The position numbers and the translations under genes are program-made. From positions 1 through 64,000 of the IMG/VR virus record IMGVR_UViG_3300025151_008080: a stretch of 64,000 nt of DNA. One strand, written 5' to 3'. A model generated the notes under the pieces. The model was given only the letters and a program-made list of their open reading frames with translations. It was not told where the DNA came from and searched no databases. Each line of letters begins with the position of its first letter. Position 1 is the stretch's first letter. This DNA comes from a virus. Of this stretch, positions 14,624 through 52,462 are shown one piece after another.

Positions 14624-14651
14624 ATAATAGGGTATCTAGAAAAAAAATCAA
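14624..14651 (-). promoter_or_regulatory. Early sigma70-like promoter of the DUF366-like gene
   Basis: Minus strand: TTGATT (14646-14651), 16-base spacer, TATTAT (14624-14629), then six bases to the ATG at 14617. The predicted transcript begins at or next to the start codon. Confidence 0.65.
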
Positions 14652-15328
14652 TAGGTAAATGTTTTATTTTCAAAATGAAGAATTTTGCCAGAAAAGGTAT
14701 AACCTTTAGAGTGGTTTGGGTTAAAGCAATATCTTTGATCTAATTGTTTTGTTTTTTTGTTAAGTATAAATTTATTGAAATGAGATTCGTCATGCCATCT
14801 AGCTATAATATTTTTATTTAAATCTGTTTTGATATTATTGTCTATCTCTGCAGCCATATTTAAAAATATTTTAGACGTACTACCAAAAAAACAACCCTGA
14901 CAATATTTACCTTTTAGTTCCGACGTATACTCTACATATGCAGTAGAATCTTTATTATTAAATTCATATGGGCCTATCTCTTCTTTAGAATAATGATAAT
15001 GAGACGTGGTAACAATTTCGTCGTTGGCTGGTAAGATTTCATCTTCAAGATAATCTACTACCTCCATATCACTATCTATATAAAAAACATAATCATAAGA
15101 TGAAATTATATTTGATACAGTATTAAAATAATTAAAACGCAACAATGTGGTTAAAGGCCATGGAAGGTGAATAATTGGTTTACAAATATCAACAGCTGTG
15201 TTAAATTGATCAGAAAACAAAAGTATATTAGTTGATACAGATGTAGTGTATTTTTTAATACTTTTAATTAATGTGGATATATATCTATTGTGTTTGTTAG
15301 TAGATATTATTAAAAATAAAATTTTCAT
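14648..15328 (-). CDS. Glycosyltransferase family 6 (ABO/alpha-1,3-Gal type)
   Basis: The 226-residue protein has GT6 hallmarks: an N-terminal strand MKILFLIIST, the DSD metal motif at 85-87 (YIDSDMEV), CQGCFFGSTSKIF, and the diagnostic WHDESHFNKF at 178-187. GT6 enzymes transfer Gal or GalNAc in alpha-1,3 linkage from UDP-sugars with retention. There is no membrane anchor, so it is the soluble catalytic domain. A second GT6 lies at 16753-17457, and two GT8-like genes sit between them. The acceptor is unknown. Confidence 0.85.
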   Translation of the reverse strand: MKILFLIISTNKHNRYISTLIKSIKKYTTSVSTNILLFSDQFNTAVDICKPIIHLPWPLTTLLRFNYFNTVSNIISSYDYVFYIDSDMEVVDYLEDEILPANDEIVTTSHYHYSKEEIGPYEFNNKDSTAYVEYTSELKGKYCQGCFFGSTSKIFLNMAAEIDNNIKTDLNKNIIARWHDESHFNKFILNKKTKQLDQRYCFNPNHSKGYTFSGKILHFENKTFTY

Positions 15329-15345
15329 TTAAATTTTTGCTAATT

Positions 15346-16074
15346 TTAATATTTCCACTTTGTATATTTATTTATTTCGGTTTTATATTTCTCATAATGC
15401 AACCCGGTGAAGTGATATAGATACCCGCGCATATGTTCACTAGCAATATCGGGATCTATATAGTTCCATTTTTTATTAATAAAGGTCAACCTATTTTTTA
15501 AAAAATACATAAAAGCTAAATTAAGTAACGCCTGCTCTACTTGATGTATATTTTTATATTTACCGTTTATATTATTCAAAGCAGCTGTAATTTTTTTAAA
15601 AACATACATATGATAGATAGGGGAAAATAAAAACATACCAGCGTTAAAAAAGTTATCTTTGTAAGATTGTTTATCAAATTTTATTCCTAAAGCATGTGCA
15701 CATACGTCCAGCCACGGTAAACATAGTTGGGTGTTTTTAAATTCTTCTTTTTGGTCTTTTGTTAAAAATGATTGCTGCATATCCTTAACAACATATATAT
15801 TTTTTTTATTACTAAAAATATCGAAAGGATTAGGTGTTGTACTATTTATAATAATATCTGTATCAATGTATAGGCATTGCTTATAACTAGAAACTAAACT
15901 AGGTAAAAATAGTTTAGTGAACATATTATGAAAGCCAGCTGGTTGTATGGGTTGTTTAAAAACGATATACTCACAACCCCATCTTTCACACGCGGCGTTA
16001 ACACTATCATAAGCATTTTGACTATGAGTATAACCTTCACTAGGTATAAAAAAAGATATAACGACATTATTCAT
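15346..16074 (-). CDS. GT8-like glycosyltransferase
   Basis: A 242-residue GT-A enzyme with DTD in LYIDTDIII (about residue 75), FFNAGMFLFS, EQALLN and a C-terminal YLYHFTG, the pattern of GT8 enzymes (retaining galactosyl or glucosyltransferases). The N-terminus contains AACERWGCEYIVF, shared with the neighbouring 229-residue gene, so the two are tandem paralogues. It overlaps that gene by eight bases. Confidence 0.75.
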   Translation of the reverse strand: MNNVVISFFIPSEGYTHSQNAYDSVNAACERWGCEYIVFKQPIQPAGFHNMFTKLFLPSLVSSYKQCLYIDTDIIINSTTPNPFDIFSNKKNIYVVKDMQQSFLTKDQKEEFKNTQLCLPWLDVCAHALGIKFDKQSYKDNFFNAGMFLFSPIYHMYVFKKITAALNNINGKYKNIHQVEQALLNLAFMYFLKNRLTFINKKWNYIDPDIASEHMRGYLYHFTGLHYEKYKTEINKYTKWKY

Positions 16075-16756
16075 TCCATTTAAAACTCTTTAAAGCTGTT
16101 TTTAAGATTTTAGGATCACCACCAGTAAAATGATATATTGAATCATTAATAGGTTTAGTAAGATCTGGGTTAATGACATTCCATTTTCTAGTTATATATG
16201 TTATTAATAATTCTTTTTGTATAATATAATTTAAGAGAGCTTGTTCTTTATGAGATGAACCATTAATACTATATTTCTTAATAAGAGAAGAATATTTTTC
16301 AAACATAGCACTTATACTTTTATCAAATAAAATAAAACCACTATTGAAAAAATTCAAAACAAAATTATCTGGTAAGTTTAAACCATCGTTAATAAATTCC
16401 TCTTTGTATCTTGTTAGATAATCTTTTATATACGCGTGAAGCTTAGCTGTCTCTTTATAACCAAGGACATATAATTCATAATGACTATCTCTTACAGTAA
16501 CAAACGGTTGTTTAAATTTAAACGGAGAATCACATTTAGAACTAATTAACATATCTGAATCAATAAGTAAAGCACGTTCATAATCCGAGTTTCGTAAAAT
16601 ATTAAACTTATTCCAACTCGGGAAAGAGTTGGGAAATTTATTTTCATCAACAATTACATACTCACAACCCCATCGTTCACATGCATGTAAATGACTGCTT
16701 TTTGCATTTTCGCACAACACATTATTAATGTTTAAAGTAATTAAAGCAGTCTTCAT
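16067..16756 (-). CDS. GT8-like glycosyltransferase, paralogue of the preceding gene
   Basis: The 229-residue protein has LIDSDMLISS as its DxD motif, FFNSGFILFDKS, KEQALLNYI, and SIYHFTGGDP near the end. HACERWGCEYVIV near the N-terminus matches the paralogue at 15346-16074. It overlaps the GT6 gene upstream by four bases. Donor and acceptor are unknown; retaining chemistry is expected for GT8. Confidence 0.75.
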   Translation of the reverse strand: MKTALITLNINNVLCENAKSSHLHACERWGCEYVIVDENKFPNSFPSWNKFNILRNSDYERALLIDSDMLISSKCDSPFKFKQPFVTVRDSHYELYVLGYKETAKLHAYIKDYLTRYKEEFINDGLNLPDNFVLNFFNSGFILFDKSISAMFEKYSSLIKKYSINGSSHKEQALLNYIIQKELLITYITRKWNVINPDLTKPINDSIYHFTGGDPKILKTALKSFKWNE

Positions 16757-17457
16757 TGTTCGTTTAGATTAGGTTTTAAAATAGATATTATTTTTGTATT
16801 CGGTAGTAACTCTCCCATAGCTTCTGGTCGTGCATATATTCTTGGTATGGTTTTTAAAGACATGTCTTGTATATATCTATTAAGATGAGACTCGTCATGC
16901 CAAATAGCAACAATATCATTACTTAAATCTATATCTATATTTTTCTCTATTGTTTCTGACATGTTAAAAAAGTTCTCGTATAAACCTCCATATAGACACG
17001 CTTGATGGTATGGTACTTTATATATGTCTTCAACAAATGCTGTTGATTTAGAATTAGTTTCATAGGGGTATAATTTTATTTCTTTACCTTCATGAAGCCA
17101 ACCACAATGAGTAACACAACAAATCGGTTTCTCTTTTGTTGGTAATAAATCTTCCGAGCTGGTTACATAACCTATACATTTTAGATCCGCGTCGACCCAA
17201 AATATTATATCACAATTAAAATATTCTTTTGTTAAATTAATAGCTTTATTTTTGTAGAGAGTGGAATATGGCCATTCATAAAAAGGAAAGTATATATTAT
17301 TAGAAATCGTTTGATGGGTAAATGTTTTATCATCAGTAAGAATTATAAATTGTTTTTCATATTGAGGTAGAAAATATTTCGCAAAAGAATCTAACATACT
17401 CGGTAGGAAGTCAACATAACTACCAGTACCCATTGTAACAATACCTATTTTACTCAT
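16753..17457 (-). CDS. Glycosyltransferase family 6, second copy
   Basis: A 234-residue GT6 enzyme with DAD at 89-91 (FWVDADLKC), YHQACLYGGLYENFFNM, and AIWHDESHLNRY at 184-195. The WHDESHLN core is nearly identical to vertebrate ABO transferases. It differs clearly from the other GT6 in this island, so the pair may have different specificity rather than being a recent duplication. The ATG is one half of a CATATG whose other half is the start of the rightward gene at 17458. Confidence 0.85.
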   Translation of the reverse strand: MSKIGIVTMGTGSYVDFLPSMLDSFAKYFLPQYEKQFIILTDDKTFTHQTISNNIYFPFYEWPYSTLYKNKAINLTKEYFNCDIIFWVDADLKCIGYVTSSEDLLPTKEKPICCVTHCGWLHEGKEIKLYPYETNSKSTAFVEDIYKVPYHQACLYGGLYENFFNMSETIEKNIDIDLSNDIVAIWHDESHLNRYIQDMSLKTIPRIYARPEAMGELLPNTKIISILKPNLNEQ

Positions 17458-18633
17458 ATGATATGTGATTATTTACAAGGGAAAATAAAAAAGCACGTAA
17501 TGCTTAAGTCCTCTAAATGTATAAACCGATACAACTGGACGTTTTGGGGAGATAAGGCCCTTGTAAGAGTAGAACCAAAAAATCTATACAGTAAAATAGT
17601 ACAATATAAGTTTAATATAGATAAACTTACTCTCACTAACCCAAAAACTATACTACAAGATAAAACATTTAGCTATGAAGACCCGAGATTGATATCTTAT
17701 AATGATTTTACATATGTAAAATACAATGTGAAAAAACAAGAGTGTTATTTTATGAAAAATAACCAGCAAATGACCAAAGGACATGCTTGGGAGAAAAACT
17801 GGCAGTTTATAACAGATAAAAAATATATTTATAAAATAAAACCGCTAGTTATTAAAGACAACACTAGTCGAGTTAAGTTTCGTTATACTATGCCTCATTG
17901 GTTAGAAGGTTTTTTTAAAGACAAACAAGATGCAAATGAAGTTCAGGTAAACACAAATGCAAAAGCATTTGGTAAGACGTACTTATATAGATTAAGTAGT
18001 AATGTTTTTAGTATAAACAACAGAAATTTTATATTTTTTCATACTGCTGCTGGAGACTTAGGTCATTATGATTATTATCAAGGTGTAATAGAGCTTGATT
18101 ATGATTTTTTACCATTAACATACTCTATTGAACCATTTTTTAACCCACCACCATTAGATAACCCATATAAATTTAAAAAGAATGAAAATAAATGCGTATA
18201 TGTTACTAGTGTTCGAATTATAAATGATAAAACATATATATGTGCAGGTATAAATGATTGTGAGTGTGCTTTATTTACTTTAGATAATAATACATTTGTT
18301 GATTGGTATGATAAATACAAAGATTTCGTAAAAGAAGAACAAACATCAAAAAATAGCTATATTACCACTATAAAAACAGAGTATGAAACAGAGTATATAA
18401 CAGAGACTCTAGATTCAGTTACGTCTATTAATACATCTACAGAGCAGCAAATAACTAACGTGCAGCAAAACACTCAAATAAAAGAAAATAATATAACTAA
18501 TATCGATAATATACAACAAGTAAGTAATTTAGAAAAACCTACTAAAATAAAAGAAAGTAATATATCTAATATTGATTATATAAGACCGGAAAACTTAGTA
18601 AGATACACACAAATAAAAAAGCCTAAGTATTGA
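17458..18633 (+). CDS. GH130/beta-propeller-like sugar enzyme with repetitive tail
   Basis: The 391-residue protein has elements of five-bladed propeller glycoside phosphorylases or hydrolases such as GH130: SYEDPRLIS near residue 75, EKNWQFI near residue 115, and YSIEPFF. Residues from about 300 onward are a Thr/Asn/Ile-rich, low-complexity tail with a duplicated 14-residue unit (KIKESNISNIDYI type). The ATG at 17458 abuts the divergent GT6 start; an internal Met at codon 15 (17500) could be the true start. It runs 11 bases into the convergent GT4 gene. The enzyme class is tentative. Confidence 0.5.
   Translation: MICDYLQGKIKKHVMLKSSKCINRYNWTFWGDKALVRVEPKNLYSKIVQYKFNIDKLTLTNPKTILQDKTFSYEDPRLISYNDFTYVKYNVKKQECYFMKNNQQMTKGHAWEKNWQFITDKKYIYKIKPLVIKDNTSRVKFRYTMPHWLEGFFKDKQDANEVQVNTNAKAFGKTYLYRLSSNVFSINNRNFIFFHTAAGDLGHYDYYQGVIELDYDFLPLTYSIEPFFNPPPLDNPYKFKKNENKCVYVTSVRIINDKTYICAGINDCECALFTLDNNTFVDWYDKYKDFVKEEQTSKNSYITTIKTEYETEYITETLDSVTSINTSTEQQITNVQQNTQIKENNITNIDNIQQVSNLEKPTKIKESNISNIDYIRPENLVRYTQIKKPKY
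18472..18582 (+). repeat. Two 42-base direct repeats in the tail of the propeller-like gene
   Basis: Unit 1 is 18472-18513 and unit 2 is 18541-18582; they are near-identical (for example CAAATAAAAGAAAATAATAT versus AAAATAAAAGAAAGTAATAT), with a 27-base spacer, and a shorter third partial copy follows near 18606. The copies are in frame and encode a repeated Ile/Asn-rich segment. Confidence 0.75.
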
Positions 18634-19591
18634 GAATTTCTTCTGTTAATTTTTTACTATTTTTTCTATTTACGTTTTTTACAAAATCTCGTACATCATT
18701 AGAATTAATAGTATTTTTAAAGTGCTCCCACTCTTGAGTTTTTTCTAATAACTCACCTTCATCAACAACCCAACCAAACTGGTGTATTAGGTGTTTAGGT
18801 CTTTGGAAAAAAGGGTATGTAGAATACTTATTGTTATCAGATGTGGTAAATGTAGAGTTAATAAATACAACTAATTCTGGGTCTAACCACTCTGTATACA
18901 TAGGGCAATTGGAAACATAAGCTATTGCACCAGTAGATAAACCTTCATATAAAAAATGACCCCACCCTTCATAATAACTCACACATAAATGAAATCTATT
19001 TGAATTTAATTGCTTTGTTACTTCTTCTTTTGGTAAAAAATCAGCAATAAAGTTAATGTTGTCTTTTAGTGGGGTTTTATTATAATGATTTAAACTTTCG
19101 ACAATTGTCAGAGGTAGAGTATTCTTATTAAAGGTATTTATTACTCGTTCGGTACCTTTTTGATAGCTTTTACCTACAAGATGAAAGAAGGTATCAGTTT
19201 TATCTATTTTTGAATCATATTTATCATATGAAACAAAACCACAGTTAACGATATTACGATTATGCGCGGCAAGTAGTTGTTTTGCGAACTCAGATTTAAC
19301 GATGATTTTATCAAATAGATATAACTGATGTACTTCTAAACCTATCCATTCTTCGTTAGCTATAAATACATTTTTTTTATTTCTATCTAAATACTGACCA
19401 TAGAAATTTTGTATAAAAATACCAACGTCATATTCATTGTATGGATTATACTCAGAGTCATTTCCTATATTATGCTCAAAGTATACTATATCTATATCAT
19501 AAAAAGGTTCTAATAGATCATATAGTAAATTTACATCAGCTATAAGACCGACCCCTGTATTAGATGTATAAATACAAGCAGTCTTTTTCAC
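18623..19591 (-). CDS. GT4-type (GT-B) glycosyltransferase
   Basis: The 322-residue protein shows a C-terminal nucleotide-sugar half typical of GT-B enzymes: FHLVGKSYQKGTERVI, then FHLCVSYYEGWGHFLYEGLSTG with the E-x7-E type motif, and YVSNCPMYTEWL. The N-terminal half carries EEWIGLEVHQLYLFD. It is an island gene on the minus strand, ten bases after a small hypothetical gene. No donor can be assigned. Confidence 0.75.
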   Translation of the reverse strand: MKKTACIYTSNTGVGLIADVNLLYDLLEPFYDIDIVYFEHNIGNDSEYNPYNEYDVGIFIQNFYGQYLDRNKKNVFIANEEWIGLEVHQLYLFDKIIVKSEFAKQLLAAHNRNIVNCGFVSYDKYDSKIDKTDTFFHLVGKSYQKGTERVINTFNKNTLPLTIVESLNHYNKTPLKDNINFIADFLPKEEVTKQLNSNRFHLCVSYYEGWGHFLYEGLSTGAIAYVSNCPMYTEWLDPELVVFINSTFTTSDNNKYSTYPFFQRPKHLIHQFGWVVDEGELLEKTQEWEHFKNTINSNDVRDFVKNVNRKNSKKLTEEILNT

Positions 19592-19601
19592 AAGTTAAAG
19601 C

Positions 19602-20003
19602 TTATCGCAATAGGTTCTCTTTATACCCTAGCATTTGCCATTGCTCGGTATCAGCTTCCCAATAAACAACAATACCGATTGGGAGCTCAGCGGTATCTAC
19701 AAACTCATCATCTACAATACCCTTTTTAAATTTAGCGGTTTCAACTAGAAAAACCTTTTCTTTAAAATATACAGCTCTAGTTTTTCTTTTATATTTGGTT
19801 TCATAAGCTTCTTTATCAGTAGACTTAGTCCAGTCCCATGTAAGTGGGTTCCAAAAAATAGTAAGGTTTTCTTTTACTTTAGCTTGTAGAGTTTTTGTAC
19901 CTAAAAATGTAATTTCTTCTACATCTTTTTCTCCGGGGTTATATTGCACTCCGTTAAAAAAGATCTCTGATATAGTATATGTTTCTTCTTGTACTTTCGG
20001 CAT
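19602..20003 (-). CDS. Hypothetical protein
   Basis: A 133-residue protein starting MPKVQEETYTISEIFFNG. This ATG (20001-20003) is preferred to an upstream in-frame start at 20042 because the latter would overlap the divergent radical SAM gene and an 18-base palindrome. The sequence is beta-rich with several Trp (FWNPLTWDW, VVYWEADTEQW). No family was recognised. It is divergent from the radical SAM gene. Confidence 0.5.
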   Translation of the reverse strand: MPKVQEETYTISEIFFNGVQYNPGEKDVEEITFLGTKTLQAKVKENLTIFWNPLTWDWTKSTDKEAYETKYKRKTRAVYFKEKVFLVETAKFKKGIVDDEFVDTAELPIGIVVYWEADTEQWQMLGYKENLLR

Positions 20004-20006
20004 AGT

Positions 20007-20024
20007 CGTATAATTAATTATACG
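20007..20024. promoter_or_regulatory. Perfect 18-base palindrome between divergent genes
   Basis: CGTATAATTAATTATACG is its own reverse complement and fills the whole gap between the ATG at 20003 (minus) and the GTG at 20024 (plus). It contains TATAAT on both strands. It could be a shared operator or paired minus-10 boxes; no good minus-35 was found. Confidence 0.45.
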
Positions 20025-21076
20025 TGAAAAAAGATCTTTCAACTAAATTCTGCGACCATCCATGGACATTTTTAGAGATACAAGAAAAAGGTCTATATAA
20101 TTGTTGTCCACGATGGGTAAACCATAACAAAATAGGAGAATTAAATCCTACTATTGATTTCATGGAAGAGTGGAACAGTAAGAAAAGTAGAGAATTCCGA
20201 CAATCTATTTTAGATGGATCATTTAGTTTATGTAATCATGAAGAATGTCCTAAAATTCAAAACGGTACATTACCAGATAAAAAAGATATACTTGCAGGCA
20301 GATATGGTGATGAGTTAAAGTTTATTGTTGAGTTTGGAATGGATGTCGCTCAACCACCAAACACAATAAATTTATGTTATGATAAATCTTGTAATTTAAG
20401 ATGTCCAACATGCAGGAAAAATCTTATTCAATACACTGAAAAAAACGAACCTCAAAAATACAAAAATACTATGATGATAAATAAGCGCTTACTGCGTATG
20501 ATTCATAGTAAACCACATAAAGTGCATTTAAATATTACTGGTTCTGGAGATCCGTTTGGTTCTCCATCGTTTTTTGAATTAATGAAAAAGGTAGAACCGG
20601 CAAAAAACCCACAAGTATCATTTACACTACAAACTAACGGAGTGTTATTTGATGAGAGCAGGTGGGAGAAACTTAAAAATATACATAAACAGGATATACA
20701 CGCTATCATAAGCTTAGATGCTGGTATAAAAGAGCACTACGATTTAGTGAGAGTAGGTGGAGATTGGGACAAACTAATGAAAAATCTTCACTTTATAGCT
20801 AAATTAGATCTCAAGTCAGTAAGATTAGATATGGTCGTTCAGAGAAATAATTATAAAAGTATTCCTGAGTTTATTCAAATAGCTCAAGCTCATAATTTTG
20901 ACTCATATACATCGAGAGTATATAACTGGGGTACCTTTACTCAACAAGAGTATAATACTCACAACATATTTGATCAAAATCACCCAGAACATCAAAACTT
21001 TTTAAAGATTTTAAACCAAGATTACCACTATCATAAACACGACTGGGGTAACTTAACAGACTTTATTACAGACTAA
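20024..21076 (+). CDS. Radical SAM protein with N-terminal SPASM/twitch-type cluster
   Basis: The 350-residue protein starts with GTG. Residues 10-75 hold a SPASM/twitch-like pattern (C10-x2-PW, C27-C28, WNS, C70, C75) placed before the radical SAM core CNLRCPTC with Cys 123, 127 and 130. The SAM-binding strand follows (NITGSGDPF). Such twitch-first proteins are known in marine phage and bacterial islands. The substrate is not known; its place at the head of a rightward block of transferases and methyltransferases suggests modification of a sugar or peptide acceptor. Confidence 0.8.
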   Translation: MKKDLSTKFCDHPWTFLEIQEKGLYNCCPRWVNHNKIGELNPTIDFMEEWNSKKSREFRQSILDGSFSLCNHEECPKIQNGTLPDKKDILAGRYGDELKFIVEFGMDVAQPPNTINLCYDKSCNLRCPTCRKNLIQYTEKNEPQKYKNTMMINKRLLRMIHSKPHKVHLNITGSGDPFGSPSFFELMKKVEPAKNPQVSFTLQTNGVLFDESRWEKLKNIHKQDIHAIISLDAGIKEHYDLVRVGGDWDKLMKNLHFIAKLDLKSVRLDMVVQRNNYKSIPEFIQIAQAHNFDSYTSRVYNWGTFTQQEYNTHNIFDQNHPEHQNFLKILNQDYHYHKHDWGNLTDFITD

Positions 21077-22147
21077 ATGAAAATAGCAGTACTATTATAC
21101 GGGCAGCCAAGATTTTGGGACTTAAGCTACGAAAGTATTATACAAGAAACAACATTTGAAGGATGTACCACAGATTACTACTTTCACTTCTGGGATAAAA
21201 TAGGGTATAACGGCTCAGATTCAGAAAACATATTAACAGATGAAATAAAAGAAAAAATTGTTAGTGTATATAAACCTAAAAAATACGAGTTTACTGACTA
21301 TGAACCACTTGTAGCAGACACTGAAAAGGTATACAAACATGTAGATATAGCGAGAAAAGAAATTGAAAATTTAAATCTTCAAAAGACTATTTTTGAGACA
21401 TGTGAGCCAGGTCATTTATCGTATTATACTGGTCAGTTTACGTCTCTTGAGAGAGTAGCAAATTTAGTAGAAGAAGAATATGATTATATATTTCGAATTC
21501 GTACGGACTTAATCTTCGCAACTCCTGATTTATATGATACAAAAAGAGATTATTTTTATGATAAAAGGTATTTTTATGATAAAATGTTAAATGGTCAAAA
21601 AGGTGTGTTTTGTAAATACGGAGATCTACAAATATGGGAAGGAGCAGAAGATAAATCCGGTAATAATACTGATCACCAACCGAAATCTAGAAAAACATAC
21701 GAGAGTATTACATATCTGAATAATAATTTTTACGGTAAACGTCGTAACTTAGGTATAAGTGATAGATACAAATCAGATACACAATATTTACATATAAAAG
21801 ACTGGTGTATGCTAGGTAGCGCAACAGAAATGCTTAAGTGTATGAAGAGTTATATACAAACAATCATAGATATGGTGTATAAAAGTCAGCAATTGCTTAT
21901 TAAAAATAATATTGATGTTAATTGGTCTGCAGGAGAGCTTGTCTGTGGAGAATCTCTAGTAAAGGAAAAAGTAAATGCAATAGAGTTAGGTTATCAATAT
22001 TATCACAATATGATTATACCTAATAGATTTTTAAAAATAGCTAATAAACATACTAAACAATGTATACTTGATAGACCTCATGTAAGAGTTTTAGCAGACT
22101 CGGGTATATCTATGAAAAAGCAATATAAAAAGATTATAGATAGATGA
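21077..22147 (+). CDS. Putative glycosyltransferase of a GQPRF-type family, copy 1
   Basis: A 356-residue protein starting MKIAVLLYGQPRFWDLS, with YYFHFWDKIG, YYTGQFTSLERV and IFRIRTDLIF (the R-x-R-x-D-L strand), and KDWCMLGSATEM. The same layout recurs at 23854 and 25582, and in a diverged form at 26604. The DL after the strand could be a divergent DxD site. I know this family only as putative transferases of phage and giant-virus islands; donor and acceptor are not known. It starts right after the stop of the radical SAM gene. Confidence 0.55.
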   Translation: MKIAVLLYGQPRFWDLSYESIIQETTFEGCTTDYYFHFWDKIGYNGSDSENILTDEIKEKIVSVYKPKKYEFTDYEPLVADTEKVYKHVDIARKEIENLNLQKTIFETCEPGHLSYYTGQFTSLERVANLVEEEYDYIFRIRTDLIFATPDLYDTKRDYFYDKRYFYDKMLNGQKGVFCKYGDLQIWEGAEDKSGNNTDHQPKSRKTYESITYLNNNFYGKRRNLGISDRYKSDTQYLHIKDWCMLGSATEMLKCMKSYIQTIIDMVYKSQQLLIKNNIDVNWSAGELVCGESLVKEKVNAIELGYQYYHNMIIPNRFLKIANKHTKQCILDRPHVRVLADSGISMKKQYKKIIDR

Positions 22148-25619: not shown

Positions 25620-26601
25620 ATTTTTAAATTATACCTGGAAATTTATAAAAGAAGAGTATACCGTACCTAACTATGAAACTTACTATTTTGGTCACTTGTG
25701 GGAAAAAGTAGGTTTCGTACCCGATGACTGTCGTAATACTAATTATATACAGCATAATATAGATAAACAAATATTAAACAATTTAAATGATGTATCAATT
25801 ACTAATTATGATATTTTAGATGCAACAACAAAAGAGTTTCATCCTAAAATAAGCAGATATTTACATAATAAAGTAAAAAGTTTTGAGAATAGACTAGATG
25901 TAGTAAAAAAATTAAGGTATAGATACGGACAACATGTGAGTAAACAATTATGTTATGATGTTTGTTGCAATTTCGAAAAAAATAACGATATAACTTTTGA
26001 TATAATAGTTGTAATAAAAACCGATTTTGTCTATAAAAGAAAAAACTGTTATAAAAAACCTGAAAATTACGAACTTGAAAAAATAGAACTATATGATGAC
26101 GTAGAATGTAACTCTAATATTGTTAAAAATGTTACACTATGTTATGAAGAATGGCAATCATATACAAAAATGACAAATAAATACAATGTAACATCCTCAA
26201 CTGAACTACCTGAGCATACTATTTACAATAGATTATTAATGAACGACCATTGGTTAATGGGTAGTAGAGATGCAATGAGTATATATTGTACTAAATGGTT
26301 TGAAACTCATGAATTATTACTGCAAGAACTAAAAGATCAAAACTTTGACCAGAATTATGTAAATATAATTCCTAAAAAATACGGATGCCCCTTTATGATG
26401 CAAGGGGAAATAGGTTTAAAAAACAATATTACACTAAAACGAACCAACAAACGATTTAAACGAGTAGTGTTGCTTAATAACTGTAAAGAAAAATTCTTAC
26501 CTAATGGTAAAAACGGTAGAGAAGTAATACATAATCAACTTAGAGATATACAAACAGAGCAATTGTATATAGAGAATAGATTACAAGAAATATTTTCTTA
26601 G
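25582..26601 (+). CDS. Putative glycosyltransferase of the GQPRF-type family, copy 3
   Basis: A 339-residue protein beginning MKKIAVLIHGQPRFLNYT with YYFGHLWEKVG, YGQHVSKQLCYDV, IIVVIKTDFVYKR and LLMNDHWLMGSRDAM. An alternative ATG two codons earlier (25576) exists; the one used here lines up with the other copies. It overlaps the GT25 gene by 38 bases. It ends the rightward block and converges on the gene at 26604. Confidence 0.55.
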   Translation: MKKIAVLIHGQPRFLNYTWKFIKEEYTVPNYETYYFGHLWEKVGFVPDDCRNTNYIQHNIDKQILNNLNDVSITNYDILDATTKEFHPKISRYLHNKVKSFENRLDVVKKLRYRYGQHVSKQLCYDVCCNFEKNNDITFDIIVVIKTDFVYKRKNCYKKPENYELEKIELYDDVECNSNIVKNVTLCYEEWQSYTKMTNKYNVTSSTELPEHTIYNRLLMNDHWLMGSRDAMSIYCTKWFETHELLLQELKDQNFDQNYVNIIPKKYGCPFMMQGEIGLKNNITLKRTNKRFKRVVLLNNCKEKFLPNGKNGREVIHNQLRDIQTEQLYIENRLQEIFS

Positions 26602-26603
26602 CT

Positions 26604-27317
26604 CTATCTAAAGCTAAATTTGAGCGGTATATTACCATGTACTCGGACATTGCGAGAAATCATATGTTCGTAAATAATTGAATGCTCACTACCATCTAAT
26701 TTAGGTACTTTATCTAAACAAAGAGGGAATAAGTCAAACACAATATCAAACACATAAGGCCTAGCCAACATAACACACCAATCAGTATGAGTGTTACCTC
26801 GCTCGTCTGATCTAATCCATGGAACAAACAAAATATTTGTACAGTTTCTTTTATTGTGAGTATCATATTTAGATAATTTTGTTAAAACGTAATCTATATT
26901 AGATATAAAATCTTTTAAAACTATATCACACCGAGATCTAATAACAAAATCATACACCCGGTTAGTCTTTTTACGCAAAAGGTGAGACTCTCGCATACTA
27001 TAAAATTGAGATAAGCATGTATAATTAGTTGTTTTAATTTTATTAACAAAATCTGCTGAAAGTGCATCACGAAATTTAATGTGCTTTTTAGCGAAAAAAT
27101 TAATTACAGGATCTAATACTTGTTGACTGTCAATAATATAATCAACCGGTTTGTATAAATTAATATACTCTTCTGCTAACGAGGACTCCCATGTGTGTAT
27201 ATAGGTATCAATATTAATACCTTTAGAACGCCACTTATCTAATGTTTTTAGGGTATCAATGCCGTCTTTATAACTATCAGCTAGGCCAGATATACATAAA
27301 GCGATGTTGTTATTCAT
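26604..27317 (-). CDS. Diverged member of the GQPRF-type transferase family
   Basis: A 237-residue protein with IALCISGLADSYKDG, IDTYIHTWESSLAEEY, LYKPVDYIID, LSQFYSMRESHLL and YDFVIRSRCDIVLKD. The order (N-terminal strand, HTW, KP, YS, R-x-R-x-D-x-x-L) is that of the three rightward copies, but shorter and without GQPRF. Probably a glycosyltransferase. It shares a short leftward block with the 248-residue unknown upstream (one base apart). Confidence 0.5.
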   Translation of the reverse strand: MNNNIALCISGLADSYKDGIDTLKTLDKWRSKGINIDTYIHTWESSLAEEYINLYKPVDYIIDSQQVLDPVINFFAKKHIKFRDALSADFVNKIKTTNYTCLSQFYSMRESHLLRKKTNRVYDFVIRSRCDIVLKDFISNIDYVLTKLSKYDTHNKRNCTNILFVPWIRSDERGNTHTDWCVMLARPYVFDIVFDLFPLCLDKVPKLDGSEHSIIYEHMISRNVRVHGNIPLKFSFR

Positions 27318-27318
27318 T

Positions 27319-28065
27319 TTATATTAAAGAATTATATATTTTTTTAAAACTATCTACCAATGGGTGTGCATTATTTACGTAGTGTAAATTTTTAATATAA
27401 TTTGTAGTAAAATCTTTAAAGTTATATACATTTAAAGACTTTTTATTATGAATCATATTATATAAACCAGATAAACTAGTTAAATGATAAAATTGAGTAG
27501 TAATAACTTGCTCAGTAAAATGAACCGGAATAGAGTTATTCTCAATAAGCGTATCATAAAACGTATGATCTTTTTCCCATATTTTTTTCTCTCTAAAGTC
27601 AAAATCGTTATTAGTGTTATTAATGAATGTATGATTAGATTGAATAGATCTTAATTTGTTGTTTTTATAAAAGCTAGATCTAGTTTTTGATTTACTCCCT
27701 CTTCTCATATTAATACAATCTATATGAGAATAAAAAAAGACATTTAAACCGGGGTTGGTAATAGGTATTTTATATACAATATCATCATCATCTTGTTGAT
27801 ACAAAAGAACTTTTTTATTTTTAGAAAAAAAATCTTTACACTGAGTATCGTCTAGTAAAACAACATCAAACATCTCTGTCAAATAACTAATTACAACATT
27901 TCTTATTTTTTGTCTGAAGGTAAAATAATTTATCTTTAGGTTTTTATTCCATATATCTAATATCGTATAAAAAACATCTTCCTTTTGAGAGCTAGTAAAA
28001 AAGAAAGGTGGTTTAGTTTTGAGCCAGTAATTTTCTTCCCCTCTTATATGACACACTGTTACCAT
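27319..28065 (-). CDS. Hypothetical island protein
   Basis: A 248-residue, AT-rich gene product with VVLLDDTQCKDFF and an acidic run (YQQDDDDIVYKIPIT) that might bind a metal-sugar complex, followed by a basic Ser/Arg/Asn stretch. Some Rhamno_transf-like transferases have a similar acidic run, but I see no firm family match. Being embedded between methyltransferase and transferase genes, a sugar role is plausible only by context. Confidence 0.4.
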   Translation of the reverse strand: MVTVCHIRGEENYWLKTKPPFFFTSSQKEDVFYTILDIWNKNLKINYFTFRQKIRNVVISYLTEMFDVVLLDDTQCKDFFSKNKKVLLYQQDDDDIVYKIPITNPGLNVFFYSHIDCINMRRGSKSKTRSSFYKNNKLRSIQSNHTFINNTNNDFDFREKKIWEKDHTFYDTLIENNSIPVHFTEQVITTQFYHLTSLSGLYNMIHNKKSLNVYNFKDFTTNYIKNLHYVNNAHPLVDSFKKIYNSLI

Positions 28066-28598
28066 TATTTTTTAATACCCCAAAAATATAAGTCTGTTAT
28101 GTGTTCGTTTACAGAAAACGCATAACTATTAAAACTGTTATCAACATTAATAACATTTCTCACATCGTTTTCAGTTAGATTTTTATAATAGTTAGCCCAC
28201 TCGTTAGTAAGTAGCGGAGCATTCTCAGGAGTATTGTTAATTGTACCATGTTCATGACGGTTTGTTGATGCGCAAGTAAATAAAAACAACCCACCAGGTT
28301 TTAATAAAAAATTTACAATATGTTTTAAGCTTTCTTGATAAAACATATCATGCTCAAAGCACTCTGTACTTATAACAACATCAAATTTTTTATCTGGATT
28401 ATATTTGTGAGTAGGAGACACAACATCTACGTTTTTTCCAACACCAACATCAATACCAATGTATGTACATCTTTTGAATAGGTATCTGTTGGTACCATTT
28501 ACATCTAAAGACCCACAATCTAAGACGGTTTTTTCTACAAAAAAAGTAGGATGTTGTTCCCTTACTAATTTACAAAAATTTTTTTGTTCACGATGCAT
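28065..28598 (-). CDS. Class I SAM-dependent methyltransferase (Methyltransf_11 type)
   Basis: The 177-residue protein has VLDCGSLDVNGTNRYLF (motif I variant), YIGIDVGVGKNVDVV (motif II), FDVVISTECFEHD (motif IV) and HIVNFLLKPGGLFLFTCA (motif V/VI). The TECFEHD signature is typical of small-molecule or sugar methyltransferases. It overlaps the GT32 gene upstream by 11 bases. Confidence 0.82.
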   Translation of the reverse strand: MHREQKNFCKLVREQHPTFFVEKTVLDCGSLDVNGTNRYLFKRCTYIGIDVGVGKNVDVVSPTHKYNPDKKFDVVISTECFEHDMFYQESLKHIVNFLLKPGGLFLFTCASTNRHEHGTINNTPENAPLLTNEWANYYKNLTENDVRNVINVDNSFNSYAFSVNEHITDLYFWGIKK

Positions 28599-29391
28599 AA
28601 AGTTTATGTAATTTTAACATTATTTTACCGAATAATGTATGACTATTGTTATTTATCCAATCCCAGTTTTTTATTTTTTTATATAAATGATGAGAGGTAG
28701 TAGACCAATAATGTAACGTTATGAGCTTTTCAGGTATATTATAATTGTCAATAAAAATTTTATTAACTTCAGTCCAGTGAGGGGTAAAAAAGTATTCAGG
28801 AGATAAAATCTTAATACGACCATTATTTTTAAATTTTTCATCAGCAATTTTTTTAGGTAAAAAAATTGAAGCCTCAGCCCAACCTTTAGGCTTGAACCAT
28901 TTTTCGTAAAGTTTTAACCACTCTGTAAAAAAATCGCTACCTGGTTCAGTGAGTAATACGGCATTACATATACCTTTATAATTTTCTTTATCTACAATAC
29001 CTTTTTTACAAGCATACTCTAATCCTAGAACAGTCTTATATTGTAATAATTCTTTATACGGCCTGATGGATATAGTATCTATATCCATATATATTCCACC
29101 TACTTTATAAAGTATGTCCATTCTTAATTTATCTGCTCGATGGGTTGTCTTTTCTATAGTGTGTCGGCCAATATGAGTAGGTAAATCTACCTTAACAAAT
29201 TCTACTACAGATATTTCTTTTAATTTATCCCACCAAATACCGTAAGGTTGATAATAATAGTAAATATAAATTTTTTCAGGATTATTTACTAAATAAGAAG
29301 AAAATATAGAAAGATAATAAGGGAATATAAATTCTTTCTTACTATTACTTTCTTCCATGCCATATATAAAATGTATTATATTAGGTATCAT
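28588..29391 (-). CDS. GT32-family glycosyltransferase
   Basis: The 267-residue protein carries the GT32 DXD sugar-binding region: RADKLRMDILYKVGGIYMDIDT (DID around residues 99-101), followed by ISIRPYKELL. IPNIIHFIYG at the N-terminus is the usual opening strand. Members add mannose, galactose or glucose in capsule and O-antigen synthesis. It overlaps the CMP-sugar synthetase-like gene by four bases. Confidence 0.85.
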   Translation of the reverse strand: MIPNIIHFIYGMEESNSKKEFIFPYYLSIFSSYLVNNPEKIYIYYYYQPYGIWWDKLKEISVVEFVKVDLPTHIGRHTIEKTTHRADKLRMDILYKVGGIYMDIDTISIRPYKELLQYKTVLGLEYACKKGIVDKENYKGICNAVLLTEPGSDFFTEWLKLYEKWFKPKGWAEASIFLPKKIADEKFKNNGRIKILSPEYFFTPHWTEVNKIFIDNYNIPEKLITLHYWSTTSHHLYKKIKNWDWINNNSHTLFGKIMLKLHKLYAS

Positions 29392-30032
29392 ACATATTGG
29401 CTTGCTACATTAAAATCTTCTTGCGTATCTAAATCAATACACTCTTTTCTGTCCCTTATAATATAAAAGTATGGATTAGCACCTACCCTACATCTATACC
29501 GCTCGTAGGCTCGTTTAGATATACCATATAAACCTGTTGTCTCTTTTATAACCGGTGTCGCATCTTGCGATCTCGGTAAAATATTAGGCTGATAATTAAC
29601 TGGTTGATCTTTATGCCAAAACCAACCATATTCTTCCGTAGCGGTAAGTATAGAATCATGCTTTGAACTATGAGTTAACTTATCTACACAGTCTCTAATA
29701 GTCTCAGGTTTTAAAAACGGAGCTGTAGCATATAATTGAAAATAAAAATCATAAGAATCTATAAAATCTATATCATAATGAAAAACATCATTACCATTAG
29801 CCGTATCTAGTGTGAGTTCCGGTTTTCGATCAATCCATTTTATTTTATTTTGAAAACAATATCCTTTTATATCTTCACTATCAGTATCTACGTATATATT
29901 ATCAAAGCACTCTGCTTGGATACAATGATCTATAATATATTTATAAAGAGGTTTATCCCCTAAAAGTTTAAAGTTTTTATCTTTAACTCTTGTAGAATTA
30001 CTTTTAATAGGTATAGTAGCGGCTATTTTCAT
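29388..30032 (-). CDS. Cytidylyltransferase, CMP-sialic-acid synthetase-like
   Basis: A 214-residue nucleotidyltransferase: KIAATIPIKSNSTRVKDKNF (CTP-binding loop with R-x-K-x-K), NIYVDTDSEDI, LYATAPFLKPETI, and a late ECIDLDTQEDF. This is the NeuA/KdsB/legionaminate-type fold that makes CMP-activated ulosonic acids. The ATG at 30032 is preferred to one at 30056 because the fold begins at MKIAATIPIK. If active it would activate a sialic-acid-like sugar for one of the island transferases, but no NeuB/NeuC homologue is visible, so the sugar would have to come from the host or from outside this window. Confidence 0.8.
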   Translation of the reverse strand: MKIAATIPIKSNSTRVKDKNFKLLGDKPLYKYIIDHCIQAECFDNIYVDTDSEDIKGYCFQNKIKWIDRKPELTLDTANGNDVFHYDIDFIDSYDFYFQLYATAPFLKPETIRDCVDKLTHSSKHDSILTATEEYGWFWHKDQPVNYQPNILPRSQDATPVIKETTGLYGISKRAYERYRCRVGANPYFYIIRDRKECIDLDTQEDFNVASQYV

Positions 30033-30086
30033 TTTAATTTTTGTATAATAAAGCAATTACCTTATTTGTAGTCATCTGCGAATAAC

Positions 30087-30683
30087 TTATACAATACCGT
30101 TGAAAGGTATTGTCTCATCATTAAAATAAACAATAAGAAAGTCGTCATACCTATGAGTGTTATCAGCAACATTTAAACGGTTTCTTGAATCTATATATAT
30201 TAGATCTCTGTCGTGAGCTAGTAACTTATAAAGGGTCTCGACAGATTCAATATCTTCTATAAAAAACATACCACCAGGTGTTAGTCTATGTTTAAATTTT
30301 TTAATAAAATTTAACTGATCAGCATATGTATGAGAACCATCTTCAATGATAATATCAAACTTTATATCTTTAATCGGACTATCATCTATAGTGTTAATAT
30401 CAAAATTATGTATGTTTACTCTTTCTGTAAACTCTTTATTATTAATTTTTTCTTGTAGTTTAGGTCTAATATCAATATCTACACCATAAATGTTAGTCTC
30501 TTTATTTTGAAAAAAATTATCCCATAATACCATGGAATTACCGTCATATAAACCAATCTCTAAAAAATTAAGCTTTTTATCTTGATAAGAATTAAAAAAT
30601 TTATCGTATATATTAAGAAAATAATGGGTATACGCTTTATCTGTATTATATTTACAGTTATTATAACAATCTATTAATTTCAT
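30087..30683 (-). CDS. Macrocin/cephalosporin-hydroxylase-like methyltransferase
   Basis: A 198-residue protein with LNFLEIGLYDGNSMVLW, IYGVDIDIRP, FDIIIEDGSHTYADQLNFIKKF and GGMFFIEDIE. EDGSHTYADQ is the pattern of CmcI/macrocin O-methyltransferase-like enzymes, which use Mg2+ and SAM to methylate sugar hydroxyls. It overlaps the GT2/GT92-like gene upstream by 23 bases. Confidence 0.75.
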   Translation of the reverse strand: MKLIDCYNNCKYNTDKAYTHYFLNIYDKFFNSYQDKKLNFLEIGLYDGNSMVLWDNFFQNKETNIYGVDIDIRPKLQEKINNKEFTERVNIHNFDINTIDDSPIKDIKFDIIIEDGSHTYADQLNFIKKFKHRLTPGGMFFIEDIESVETLYKLLAHDRDLIYIDSRNRLNVADNTHRYDDFLIVYFNDETIPFNGIV

Positions 30684-31413
30684 GAGTTAAATCTTCTATA
30701 TAAGGTAAGTAATTTTTATGTTTTTGTCCGAGTTCACTGTTATTGAAGTGATGTTGGAACCCTAAATTTAGTTTTTTATCTCTTTTTGAAACTTTATTAC
30801 TTATTTGAGTTTTTCTTTTTAGTAATGTCTCATTAAAAGGAGAATAACCGTACCATAAAATAGCGGCTTTATCAACCGTCTCTTGATTCCAGTAATGACG
30901 CCCTGTAGGGTAAGTAACATTAATTTGATGCATACTTCTTGGAGATCTATTAATGTAAATTTGATCTGGTTTATTTACATCTACATTAATAATTCCATGA
31001 GATCTTTGTTCGTATATTGGCTTGTTTATAGATATATCTTTACCGATATTTTCTTCTATATCTATCATTGGTATAGATTTAACAAAAAACTGCTCTGAAT
31101 GTTGGTCGCATAATGTATCAATATCTCCAATTAAAAACTCTGTTACATTAAGACACATTTTCCACCCAGGTATTCGTCTTTCGAACGATTCTACTTCTCT
31201 ATCTAACCGTTCTGCGTCAAATTCTGGTTCTTTTGTATCTATGATTAACCATTGCTTTTCATCTGGACAATATTCTCTAATAATATCTACAGAATTATCT
31301 GTAGAGTTATAATTTATAAAAACCCCTCTGTCAAATATCTCAAGATGATGTTTAACAAAAAAAGGCAATAAATATTCTTCATTATAAAAATGACATAGTA
31401 GAGTTTTATTCAT
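30661..31413 (-). CDS. GT2/GT92-like glycosyltransferase
   Basis: The 250-residue protein begins KTLLCHFYNEEYLLPFFVKHH and continues FINYNSTDNSVDII, FLIGDIDTLC; these are the family 2 substructures seen in the Glyco_tranf_2_4 / GT92 group. GDID is the candidate metal motif. The C-terminus (RSHGIINVDVNK) carries residues of the acceptor side. Shares one base with the radical SAM gene downstream. Confidence 0.65.
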   Translation of the reverse strand: MNKTLLCHFYNEEYLLPFFVKHHLEIFDRGVFINYNSTDNSVDIIREYCPDEKQWLIIDTKEPEFDAERLDREVESFERRIPGWKMCLNVTEFLIGDIDTLCDQHSEQFFVKSIPMIDIEENIGKDISINKPIYEQRSHGIINVDVNKPDQIYINRSPRSMHQINVTYPTGRHYWNQETVDKAAILWYGYSPFNETLLKRKTQISNKVSKRDKKLNLGFQHHFNNSELGQKHKNYLPYIEDLTHEINRLL

Positions 31414-32282
31414 TAATTTAAAAATTCTTCAGGTGTTAAATCTATTTTACATGTTTTACATATACCGGTTTTTGGGGAAATATCTTTAAGAGAATTTCTC
31501 CAAAGATCGTATTTTTTACTAGCATATATATCCCATAAAAAATCATCGTTAACATTACCAGTTTTACCATTGGAGTGCTCTTTAACGTCAGATCTCGTAT
31601 TACAACAAACCATCACACTACCGTTGTAATCTATATACATATTATTGAATGGTTGTTTGCAGGGTTTTGTTCTAATATAATTATTATTGTCTTTAATAAC
31701 TTCTTCCGTACGTCCTGTACCTTCTAAACTAAAATTCCTAGCGCGAAGATGAACTTTTATTCCGGGTATTTCAATTTTATATTCTATACGTTGATTATCA
31801 ATATCGCTAATAACGCTGTATGGTACGTTTAATTGTTCCATTTTATTAATCATTTTTTCTTTCATTTTTTTATGATTATATTTTTCGTTATTACTTAAAT
31901 ATTGTTGGATAAAAAGCTCATTCAACCCACTGTCTCTTAGTTCTTCTATATAATTAGAATCTTTTATATAATCTCCGTTAGTGTTAGTTCGTAATTTGCA
32001 GTCTGGTAATTTTTGTCTAGCTTCTTGCAATCTGGATAAAATAACATCTTTATGAGAGAGCGGTTCATTATACCTACTGTAGGTTATTTCTTGGTCGTAT
32101 TTTATTTCTTTAAGTTGATTAATAATACTGAAATACATTTCATCTGACATAAATGTAATATCATTAATTCTATCTATATAAGAATTTGGACAAAACCAAC
32201 ACTTTCTATTACAAAAAGAAAAAACTTCTATTTCTATTAGTTTTAATTGTTGTTTAAACCAATTTTTTATATTTGAGTTCAT
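31413..32282 (-). CDS. Radical SAM protein with C-terminal SPASM domain
   Basis: The 289-residue protein has the core cluster motif CNRKCWFC (Cys 24, 28, 31), a strand YSRYNEPLSH, and a C-terminal SPASM-like part with PCKQPFNNMYIDYNGSVMVCC and CKTCK. It shares the SPASM type of cofactor binding with the 20024 gene, but in the usual order. Substrate unknown; radical SAM-SPASM enzymes in such islands usually act on sugars or small peptides. It overlaps the methyltransferase upstream by four bases. Confidence 0.8.
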   Translation of the reverse strand: MNSNIKNWFKQQLKLIEIEVFSFCNRKCWFCPNSYIDRINDITFMSDEMYFSIINQLKEIKYDQEITYSRYNEPLSHKDVILSRLQEARQKLPDCKLRTNTNGDYIKDSNYIEELRDSGLNELFIQQYLSNNEKYNHKKMKEKMINKMEQLNVPYSVISDIDNQRIEYKIEIPGIKVHLRARNFSLEGTGRTEEVIKDNNNYIRTKPCKQPFNNMYIDYNGSVMVCCNTRSDVKEHSNGKTGNVNDDFLWDIYASKKYDLWRNSLKDISPKTGICKTCKIDLTPEEFLN

Positions 32283-32863
32283 GCTTTTCTTTTTATAATT
32301 AACAAACCATTGTTATTTTTAAATTCTTTTTCTAAAACCCAATCTTTATTTTCTAAAAATTCTAATATAGCCGGCATGAGACCGGTTTTTTTATTTTGCG
32401 TATTTATTTTTTTACTTGAAATGGGATCGTAATACTGATCTGTATAACCGAAAACTACAGTGTCGTGAAAAATTATATACTTATTAACCTTATTAGAATG
32501 TCTCGCTAGTTCCTGGGTAAGTTGATCGTATGTATGATATGTATCGATAAACAATAAATCTGTTTGCTCAATATCAACCACTAATGTATCTGCTTGAGTG
32601 AACTTATATTCGATATTATTTTCAGCGGCAAGTTTATACACTGTGTCAAGATCTCCACCATAATGAGTTGGTGGCATAATATCATAAGAATGTAAACGTT
32701 TAGGTTTACCAGCTAAAAAACCATATGATGAAACAATAGCTCTAACTCCAAACTCTGTAACAGTACTACACTTTTCAGTGTATTCTTTTAGTGTAGGTAA
32801 ATGTTCGTTAATATCTGAAGAGATATTGCATAATGAATTATATTTATTTAAAATTTCTTTCAT
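32279..32863 (-). CDS. Class I methyltransferase-like protein
   Basis: A 194-residue protein with VTEFGVRAIVSSYGFL (motif I variant), LHSYDIMPP (motif II), DLLFIDTYHTYDQLTQEL and KYIIFHDTVVFG. The FIDTYHTYDQL-FHDT layout matches SAM methyltransferases of the Methyltransf_24 group, though the glycine loop is reduced. The C-terminal half (LMPAILEFLENKDWVLEKEF) is family-like. Overlaps both neighbouring genes by four bases. Confidence 0.7.
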   Translation of the reverse strand: MKEILNKYNSLCNISSDINEHLPTLKEYTEKCSTVTEFGVRAIVSSYGFLAGKPKRLHSYDIMPPTHYGGDLDTVYKLAAENNIEYKFTQADTLVVDIEQTDLLFIDTYHTYDQLTQELARHSNKVNKYIIFHDTVVFGYTDQYYDPISSKKINTQNKKTGLMPAILEFLENKDWVLEKEFKNNNGLLIIKRKA

Positions 32864-33600
32864 ATTTTATAGTGATCACATAGAGCTGCTCTAATCTTAT
32901 TACAATCTTCAATATCAAACGAAGATGTCAATTTATTTCTACTAACACTTTCATAATGATAACATTCTGCTTTACCGACAAATTTGTGCTTCAAATTATG
33001 TTTGGTACATTTTATACAAAAATCTACATCTTCAAAGCATTTCTTATAAGATATATCTAAACCACCCATATCTAAATATATGGATTTCTTAATCAAAACA
33101 AATGCAAAAGTATTACCTACATTATATTCAGTAGGTAGTTGTTTATTTTTTTGTCTTAAATGTTTGTGAGTTACCTCAGCAGAATTATTATGAATATGGT
33201 GTATATGTCCTCCATGTTGGATAGTATTATCGGAATATAATAACTTACAACCTATAGTACCAATATTACTAGCTGTCTCCTTCCACATTATAGATACTGC
33301 ATCGTTAATTAATTCAATATCATCATTACAAAATAATATAAACTTCTCTTTAACTCTATTGTTGATTATCCAATTGTGGTTTCTAGCAAAATTATAATTT
33401 TTAAATTTAATTAGTTCGACTTTAAAAAGAAAAGTAGAAAGATATTTTTCTAACAAATTAAGCTGATTACTATTTGAACCTGTATCTCCTACATAAAACT
33501 TTAAATTACTATATGTATTTTTTTCTTTAAAAGAGTTTAAACACCTTTCAATATAATCAAAATTATTTTTTGTAAGAATTATAACTCCTATTGATTCCAT
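32860..33600 (-). CDS. GT2-family (rhamnosyltransferase-type) glycosyltransferase
   Basis: The 246-residue protein has IGVIILTKNNFDYIERCLNSF, YVGDTGSNSNQLNLL, FILFCNDDIELIND (NDD motif), GGHIHHIHN, then GGLDISYKKCFEDVDFCIKC with the catalytic ED-x-D. This is the classic GT2 rhamnosyl or galactosyl type and may use a dTDP-sugar made by the rmlB/rmlD-like genes at 59.5-61.4 kb. It overlaps thyX by 13 bases and marks the left boundary of that gene. Confidence 0.85.
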   Translation of the reverse strand: MESIGVIILTKNNFDYIERCLNSFKEKNTYSNLKFYVGDTGSNSNQLNLLEKYLSTFLFKVELIKFKNYNFARNHNWIINNRVKEKFILFCNDDIELINDAVSIMWKETASNIGTIGCKLLYSDNTIQHGGHIHHIHNNSAEVTHKHLRQKNKQLPTEYNVGNTFAFVLIKKSIYLDMGGLDISYKKCFEDVDFCIKCTKHNLKHKFVGKAECYHYESVSRNKLTSSFDIEDCNKIRAALCDHYKI

Positions 33601-36753: not shown

Positions 36754-36754
36754 A

Positions 36755-36919
36755 TTAGTTTCTATCCTCGTAATAAGTTATATCATTACCAAACGGTTTA
36801 GTCAAGTCCTTTTCTTTAGGATTTTCTTTTTTTTCTTTTTTACTAGACCAATCAATATTGTCCCAATTACTAATAACACTAGAATAATCCTCTTCGCGAC
36901 GTTTGCTACCTTTACTCAT
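36755..36919 (-). CDS. Small hypothetical protein between queE and queD
   Basis: A 54-residue frame, MSKGSKRREEDYSSVISNW onward, ending FGNDITYYEDRN. It is separated by a single base from both queE and queD, so it fills the gap exactly and is probably translated in that operon. Charged and lysine-rich; the SNWDNIDW segment recalls small phage proteins of unknown function. No enzyme role is suggested. Confidence 0.6.
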   Translation of the reverse strand: MSKGSKRREEDYSSVISNWDNIDWSSKKEKKENPKEKDLTKPFGNDITYYEDRN

Positions 36920-36920
36920 A

Positions 36921-37379: not shown

Positions 37380-37385
37380 ACATCT

Positions 37386-37413: not shown

Positions 37414-37416
37414 TAG

Positions 37417-37444: not shown

Positions 37445-37450
37445 AACGAC

Positions 37451-52454: not shown

Positions 52455-52462
52455 ATAAAATT

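Follow-up and report, generated by a model that had tools for sequence, protein, structure and literature searches.

We tentatively interpret a nineteen-kb stretch in the genome of a T4-like marine phage as a glycan island that keeps a fixed locus while its cassettes are swapped, and whose product reaches the surface of the host cell. The phage is represented by virus record IMGVR_UViG_3300025151_008080 (70,759 bases); its first 64,000 bases constitute the window, i.e. the whole stretch of DNA that was analysed, and the island occupies positions 14648-33600. In favour of this reading, the same two anchors, genes for a DUF366 protein and a PhoH-like protein, bound islands of 13-29 kb in all nine relatives compared. 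In addition, islands of pelagimyophages that are rich in glycosyltransferase family 8 (GT8) and related genes were given the same reading by their authors (PMC7029224, in the part of the text available).

Architecture and borders of the island

The island holds 25 genes (Table 1, where they are designated by their first coordinate), is 99.6% coding, changes strand four times and has overlapping genes at 16 of its 24 junctions. Its extent, strand changes and tight packing therefore stand as described in an earlier note on this DNA, which had been drawn from the sequence alone. The same is true of its higher AT content relative to the capsid side: the G + C (GC) content of the island is 0.286 versus 0.358 on the structural side (P = 5e-5), and it is also slightly lower than the 0.310 of the replication side (P = 0.007). 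The list of families in that note agrees with the Pfam matches, with weaker support for 16067, 18623, 30661 and 32279, and its four GQPRF-type transferases (21077, 23839, 25576 and 26604) were united in one family by iterative profile search.

Nine related IMG/VR contigs carry an island of 13.2-29.2 kb at the same place, extending from DUF366 to PhoH (or to ThyX where present). DUF366 was found in all 22 portal loci (of 80) that reach at least 5.7 kb upstream. ThyX (33588-34229) is present in only two of seven large relatives and absent from the other five, as well as from the G008 and G009 regions; it is therefore a variable edge gene, and PhoH (34277) is the fixed right anchor. Thus the comparison of borders that the earlier note had proposed bore out a fixed place in 9 of 9 relatives, but moved the right border to PhoH and left ThyX in the variable zone.

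The DUF366 protein itself (14030-14617, PH1223-like) is 76-93% identical in relatives and forms the left island border in every locus reaching it. Its closeness to the island was first taken as a sign of possible base chemistry; no support was found for such a link.

Signals that might bear on expression timing were uninformative: the motif TATAAATA occurs 16 times, with only three gene starts having a copy within 60 bases upstream, and sigma-70-like and terminator-like sites are no commoner than in shuffled sequence.

Gene turnover around a small conserved core

Island genes were compared with those of the nine relatives, a counterpart being defined by at least 40% identity over at least 70% coverage. 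Eight of the 25 genes have a counterpart in at least one relative and four have one in at least five, while 10 have no match at E = 1e-5 in any. Where the right side could also be compared (four relatives), recurrence in three or more of them was seen for 38 of 43 genes beyond the right end of the island but for only 3 of the 25 island genes. A small core stays, consisting of 19602, 20024 and 29388 (in 6-8 of the 9 relatives) and 21077 (in 5), while turnover affects most of the other transferases, methyltransferases and genes for sugar synthesis that lie between the two anchors.

The orphan protein 19602 was found in eight of the nine relatives at E ≤ 1e-5, and in seven at the identity and coverage thresholds given above; in many of them it has a Lys-rich N-terminal tail. 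Its predicted fold (mean predicted local distance difference test score, pLDDT, 74.3) gave no structure match at E ≤ 0.001. It is arranged head to head with the radical S-adenosylmethionine (SAM) protein 20024, which is present in eight relatives at 49-80% identity. An exact copy of TAATTATAC immediately precedes the radical SAM start in 18 of the 21 distinct intergenic sequences, by a count made by eye; in the window it is part of a perfect palindrome, GTATAATTAATTATAC (20004-20023), between the two divergent core genes, a position which suggests a shared promoter or a leaderless start. The GQPRF gene 21077 (45-63% identity in its five relatives) was found at 26 loci in IMG/VR, of which 25 extend far enough upstream for the neighbourhood to be seen; both core genes are there in 23.

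Searches of 50,697 phage records yielded no match to the island DNA (near mode). Five of the 25 island proteins were also queried against these records: 21077, 23839, 29388 and 19602 had no match, and the radical SAM protein 20024 had a single partial match of 28% identity.

A transferase family with a predicted GT-A fold

The GQPRF family comprises 40 genes in the ten islands (two, being fragments, were not in the first alignment) and is present in nine, with none in G010. A profile of the family found no sequence relative in the PDB. For structure prediction, 48 of 49 non-redundant window and IMG/VR sequences were aligned, one fragment being left out, and the resulting AlphaFold2 model of 23839 reached a mean pLDDT of 83.8. 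Its top Foldseek matches are GT-A enzymes, GT6 first, although the TM-scores are low (0.29-0.37 by query length). A second aligner gave Z 12.9 with COLGALT1 (232 residues aligned, root-mean-square deviation 4.7) and Z 12.1 with a bacterial GT6 enzyme (204 aligned, 3.6); no one glycosyltransferase family is singled out since the two differ by less than 1 in Z. The GQPRF proteins are accordingly predicted, on the strength of the model, to be a GT-A fold family. There is no conserved copy of the canonical DxD motif in the family consensus; an RTD motif stands where DxD would be expected, and its aspartate (D150) is invariant in the 48 sequences and would be the metal site. The family offers a marker for finding islands of this kind.

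Sugar-making genes in the window and in relatives

The CMP-sugar synthetase-like protein 29388 scores 67 bits against PF02348 (cut-off 22.6), and 80 bits (E 2e-22) against the PseF equivalog TIGR03584, which is below the cut-off of 205.7. It is 76-88% identical in six of the nine relatives. Cellular matches of about 30% identity were found in 2 of 149 Planctomycetaceae genomes and in 10 of 148 genomes of a Bacteroidota order. Being alike among phages and so distant from cellular proteins in the two sampled groups, it looks long resident in phages rather than recently captured from either group. A search of the genome collection limited to two short patterns added no relative to its alignment. 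A full nonulosonate pathway was considered and set aside, as no NeuB-type synthase (PF03102) was found in the 10 records; these records are possibly incomplete, and the enzyme could come from the host.

One relative, G002, carries close together (L172:1609-4765) a HAD/nucleotidyltransferase fusion, an HpcH/HpaI-type aldolase and a second cytidylyltransferase (CMP-sugar synthetase), in a run that also includes a GXM-type methyltransferase. Judging from these families, the run may form a new route to a CMP-activated keto-acid sugar. Genes matching this run in size and order are also present in G001 and G003; the G002 run alone was scanned.

Pfam families were tallied in 149 of the 241 island proteins of relatives, covering six of nine islands (G001, G002 and G003, whose right halves are partly alike, were left out). 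Epimerase/dehydratase (13), GDP-mannose dehydratase-type (10), GT2 (9), GT25 (5), DegT aminotransferase (4) and GT10 (3) matches were counted, families overlapping, and radical SAM proteins, methyltransferases and cytidylyltransferases are also among the commonest. Neither structural phage families nor tail fibres are among the commonest 25 of the 76 families in these proteins. With such sugar-nucleotide enzymes, the relatives appear equipped both to synthesise unusual sugars and to transfer them. These enzymes, the families in the window and the predicted GT-A fold support the earlier suggestion that the set could build a branched, methylated glycan.

Where the glycan may go

The earlier note had named the virion, the host surface and DNA as possible targets. 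Of the three, DNA is the least likely, and sequence alone does not choose between the other two. We regard the host envelope as the more likely target, with the virion as a close rival; this preference was reached by analogy with the pelagimyophage precedent (PMC7029224, available in part) and not from direct evidence.

None of the 25 island proteins of the window has a membrane-like segment (19-residue hydropathy of at least 1.6), and in the ten islands only 1 of 266 proteins has one; in the window's own record, 2 of 91 reading frames reach this value. The island therefore probably acts in the cytosol or at the inner face of the membrane, and, no membrane export parts having been seen, a surface product must rely on export by the host. 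During infection, soluble enzymes would assemble and methylate an oligosaccharide within the cytosol, drawing on nucleotide-sugar donors, one of them CMP-activated. The acceptor would lie at the inner membrane face and could be the lipopolysaccharide (LPS) core or a lipid-linked intermediate of the host. Host export would place the altered glycan on the cell surface, where it could hide or replace the receptor of competing phages, and exchange of cassettes would follow host-surface diversity and competition between phages. Several points weigh against such a role. Soluble enzymes would suit virion decoration equally well; about 20 kb would be a large cost for exclusion alone; a lipid-linked starter enzyme, a flippase, a polymerase and a ligase were not recognised; and for half of the four-gene core, namely the orphan and the radical SAM protein, no part in surface glycans is known.

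Virion glycosylation, in which the soluble enzymes would add sugars to capsid or tail proteins within the cytosol and give each lineage its own coat, is somewhat less probable but a serious contender. Chloroviruses glycosylate their own capsid protein. The single membrane-like protein among 266 fits this possibility, as do the methyltransferases that accompany the transferases and the left island genes (17457-14648), which lead into DUF366 and the head genes without a change of strand. There are also precedents in giant viruses, whose glycosyltransferases are linked to capsid decoration (PMC12906663), and in mycobacteriophage Maravista, which is suggested to glycosylate its capsid (PMC11256854), both as given in the available portions of these sources. 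However, no acceptor protein was identified, and what is known of GT25 and GT8 comes mostly from LPS synthesis (for GT8, PMC7029224 in its available part). A more specific version, which we consider a long shot, has the core act as a priming unit: 29388 and 21077 would attach the first sugars to an acceptor made by the phage, possibly 19602 matured by 20024, and the swapped cassettes would add a lineage-specific outer virion glycan. If true, the result would be a phage counterpart of the chlorovirus capsid glycan.

Low GC content and gene turnover could also mark a mixed zone of recently captured host genes without joint function. This is the least probable of the explanations weighed, since the islands scanned are consistent in functional content, their borders are fixed and a core is conserved, and since 29388 is only about 30% identical to its cellular matches in the two sampled groups.

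T4-like phages are known to glycosylate their DNA, and addition of sugars by the island to a modified phage base must be weighed against the DNA-side genes of the record. A 7-deazaguanine set (QueF, QueE, QueD, FolE2 and QueC) is encoded at 1686-2600, 36010-38485 and 51732-53107, with a separate glutamine amidotransferase gene adjoining QueC; all but FolE2 are conserved in relatives. The phage DNA may accordingly carry a 7-deazaguanine base, although no TGT family member was found in the 10 records, which are fragments and in which a divergent DpdA could escape detection. Two glycosyltransferase-like genes inside the replication module (46344-47576 and 53104-53802) are kept in four of four relatives, the former being called from weak Pfam matches (E ~0.01) with no solved relative. 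RmlB-like (319 bits, cut-off 365) and RmlD-like dTDP-sugar enzymes (59489-61385) are likewise kept in four relatives; an RmlA-like enzyme occurs in one, with a matching fragment at the end of this record. The two glycosyltransferase-like genes are better candidates for DNA glycosylation than the island, which turns over while the DNA-linked genes do not; the dTDP-sugar enzymes are candidates as well. DNA modification by the island is therefore improbable.

Comparison with known systems

The island belongs with the glycosyltransferase-rich hypervariable islands known from marine T4-like phages, as a variant with fixed borders that combines a core with cassettes. Prochlorococcus cyanophages such as P-SSM2 carry LPS gene clusters and resemble it in having many LPS-type genes in a T4-like phage; they differ in that neither the island DNA (near mode) nor four island proteins had a match among the phage records searched. 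In a Wzx/Wzy O-antigen or capsule cluster the characteristic features are a membrane flippase and polymerase, in contrast to the counts of membrane-like proteins given above.

The closest likeness is to the host recognition cluster of pelagimyophages and cyanomyophages (PMC7029224, available part), which are also T4-like marine phages; their syntenic core is broken by a single large hypervariable island with many glycosyltransferases, GT8 among them, and with radical SAM cassettes. According to that text, the pelagimyophage islands lie between VrlC and gp14 and contain tail fibres, whereas DUF366 and PhoH flank the one described here. The nearest neck-type gene (phrog_211, 6489-7841) is 6.8 kb from the island (no search for VrlC was made), and Pfam recognised no tail fibre among the 25 window genes, though unrecognised fibres are possible. 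As place and content differ from the definition, we did not file the island as a host recognition cluster. Metaviromic islands (PMC3909814) are similar as variable regions in otherwise conserved marine phages, but their recurrent genes are recognition proteins such as tail fibres, and the word glycosyltransferase is not used in the available part of that source. Virus glycan genes also lie in variable regions of Ostreococcus viruses (PMC12906663, available part); these are giant viruses of eukaryotes with an unrelated genome type.

A further parallel comes from capsid glycosylation in chloroviruses, which are eukaryotic giant viruses as well. Marine T4-like phages devote a large share of their genomes to sugar enzymes, and no paper that we found shows the target. 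The present clade provides a clean comparison, in which the borders are fixed, a small core is conserved and the cassettes can be exchanged, so that the question can be put gene by gene.

Gene content

The features of the island and its anchors are collected in Table 1. The profile of 18623 was built from five homologues and matched solved group-1 transferases. Three genes (17458, 19602 and 27319) have no family assignment. No solved relative and no NCBIfam match were found for 17458, which may resemble GH130-type propellers, a likeness that the search for solved relatives did not confirm.

Table 1. Features of the glycan island and its two anchors
Feature	Coordinates	Strand	Evidence
Left anchor DUF366, outside island	14030-14617	-	PF04017 E 3.5e-20; solved relative 2ddz E 1.5e-4
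GT6 glycosyltransferase	14648-15328	-	PF03414 E 2.7e-17; solved GT6 enzymes E 6e-13
GT8 glycosyltransferase	15346-16074	-	PF01501 E 9e-10
GT8-like paralogue of 15346	16067-16756	-	Iterative profile search; no Pfam match
GT6 glycosyltransferase	16753-17457	-	PF03414 E 1.6e-16
Protein with invariant EDPR, EKNWQ and GINDC motifs	17458-18633	+	3-sequence alignment
GT4-like glycosyltransferase	18623-19591	-	PF00534 weak, E 0.005; profile match 5i45 E 2.4e-4
Orphan core protein	19602-20003	-	Conserved in relatives; alignment
Intergenic element with palindrome GTATAATTAATTATAC	20004-20023	.	Directly before radical SAM start
Twitch/SPASM-type radical SAM protein, core	20024-21076	+	PF04055 E 1e-11; NF033640 E 3e-28, below cut-off
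GQPRF-family transferase, most conserved copy	21077-22147	+	Family search; 5/9 relatives
Methyltransferase (Methyltransf_24)	22144-22698	+	PF13578 E 1e-16
GT2 glycosyltransferase	22695-23375	+	PF00535 E 6e-11
Methyltransferase (Methyltransf_24)	23330-23857	+	PF13578 E 2e-9
GQPRF-family transferase, predicted GT-A fold	23839-24894	+	AlphaFold2 model
GT25 glycosyltransferase	24891-25619	+	PF01755 E 4e-9
GQPRF-family transferase	25576-26601	+	Family search
GQPRF-family transferase, short form	26604-27317	-	Family search
Putative transferase, family with invariant QDDDD motif	27319-28065	-	6-member alignment; no Pfam match
Methyltransferase (Methyltransf_23)	28065-28598	-	PF13489 E 3e-8
DXD sugar-binding (GT32-like) glycosyltransferase	28588-29391	-	PF04488 E 3e-11
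CMP-sugar synthetase, PseF/NeuA-like, core	29388-30056	-	PF02348 E 2e-18; NeuA 9t4z E 5e-17
Methyltransferase (Methyltransf_24)	30087-30683	-	PF13578 E 2e-12
GT2/GT92-like, weak	30661-31413	-	PF13704 E 7e-4, below cut-off
Radical SAM/SPASM protein	31413-32282	-	PF04055 E 7e-11; PF13186 E 9e-11
Probable methyltransferase	32279-32863	-	PF13578 E 0.004, below cut-off; recovered in 22144 profile
GT2 glycosyltransferase	32860-33600	-	PF00535 E 3e-11; 55% identical in G006
ThyX, variable edge	33588-34229	-	PF02511 E 1e-50
Right anchor PhoH-like, outside island	34277-35068	+	phrog_170 E 7e-62; 9/9 relatives

The phage and its clade

The conserved, syntenic core modules of a T4-like phage are present, the synteny being seen in relatives. 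The window encodes T4-like head, portal and protease genes, the major head protein among them, and a T4-type terminase lies in the same record just right of the window; PolB and RecA/UvsX-like, DnaB-like and gp32-like proteins are also encoded. Every match of the portal protein among the 50,697 phage records is less than 60% identical, the best 25 listed being at 30-33%, whereas IMG/VR holds 80 portal loci at 72-86% identity. Since the former matches are so distant, the clade is represented solely by metagenomic contigs in the collections searched. By its gene sequences, it is an uncultured clade of T4-like marine phages without a close cultured relative in those collections. Literature searches, which reached few subscription papers, found no paper on it.

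The sole host lead, a weak one, comes from FolE2 (37451-38485), whose nearest cellular match is 82-84% identical and belongs to marine Planctomycetaceae or Rhodopirellula metagenome-assembled genomes. Of four relatives, G006 alone gave a FolE2 match; the regions compared from G001, G003 and G007 showed none. The G006 copy is 97% identical, with flanking genes far less alike, a pattern which suggests recent transfer of this gene.

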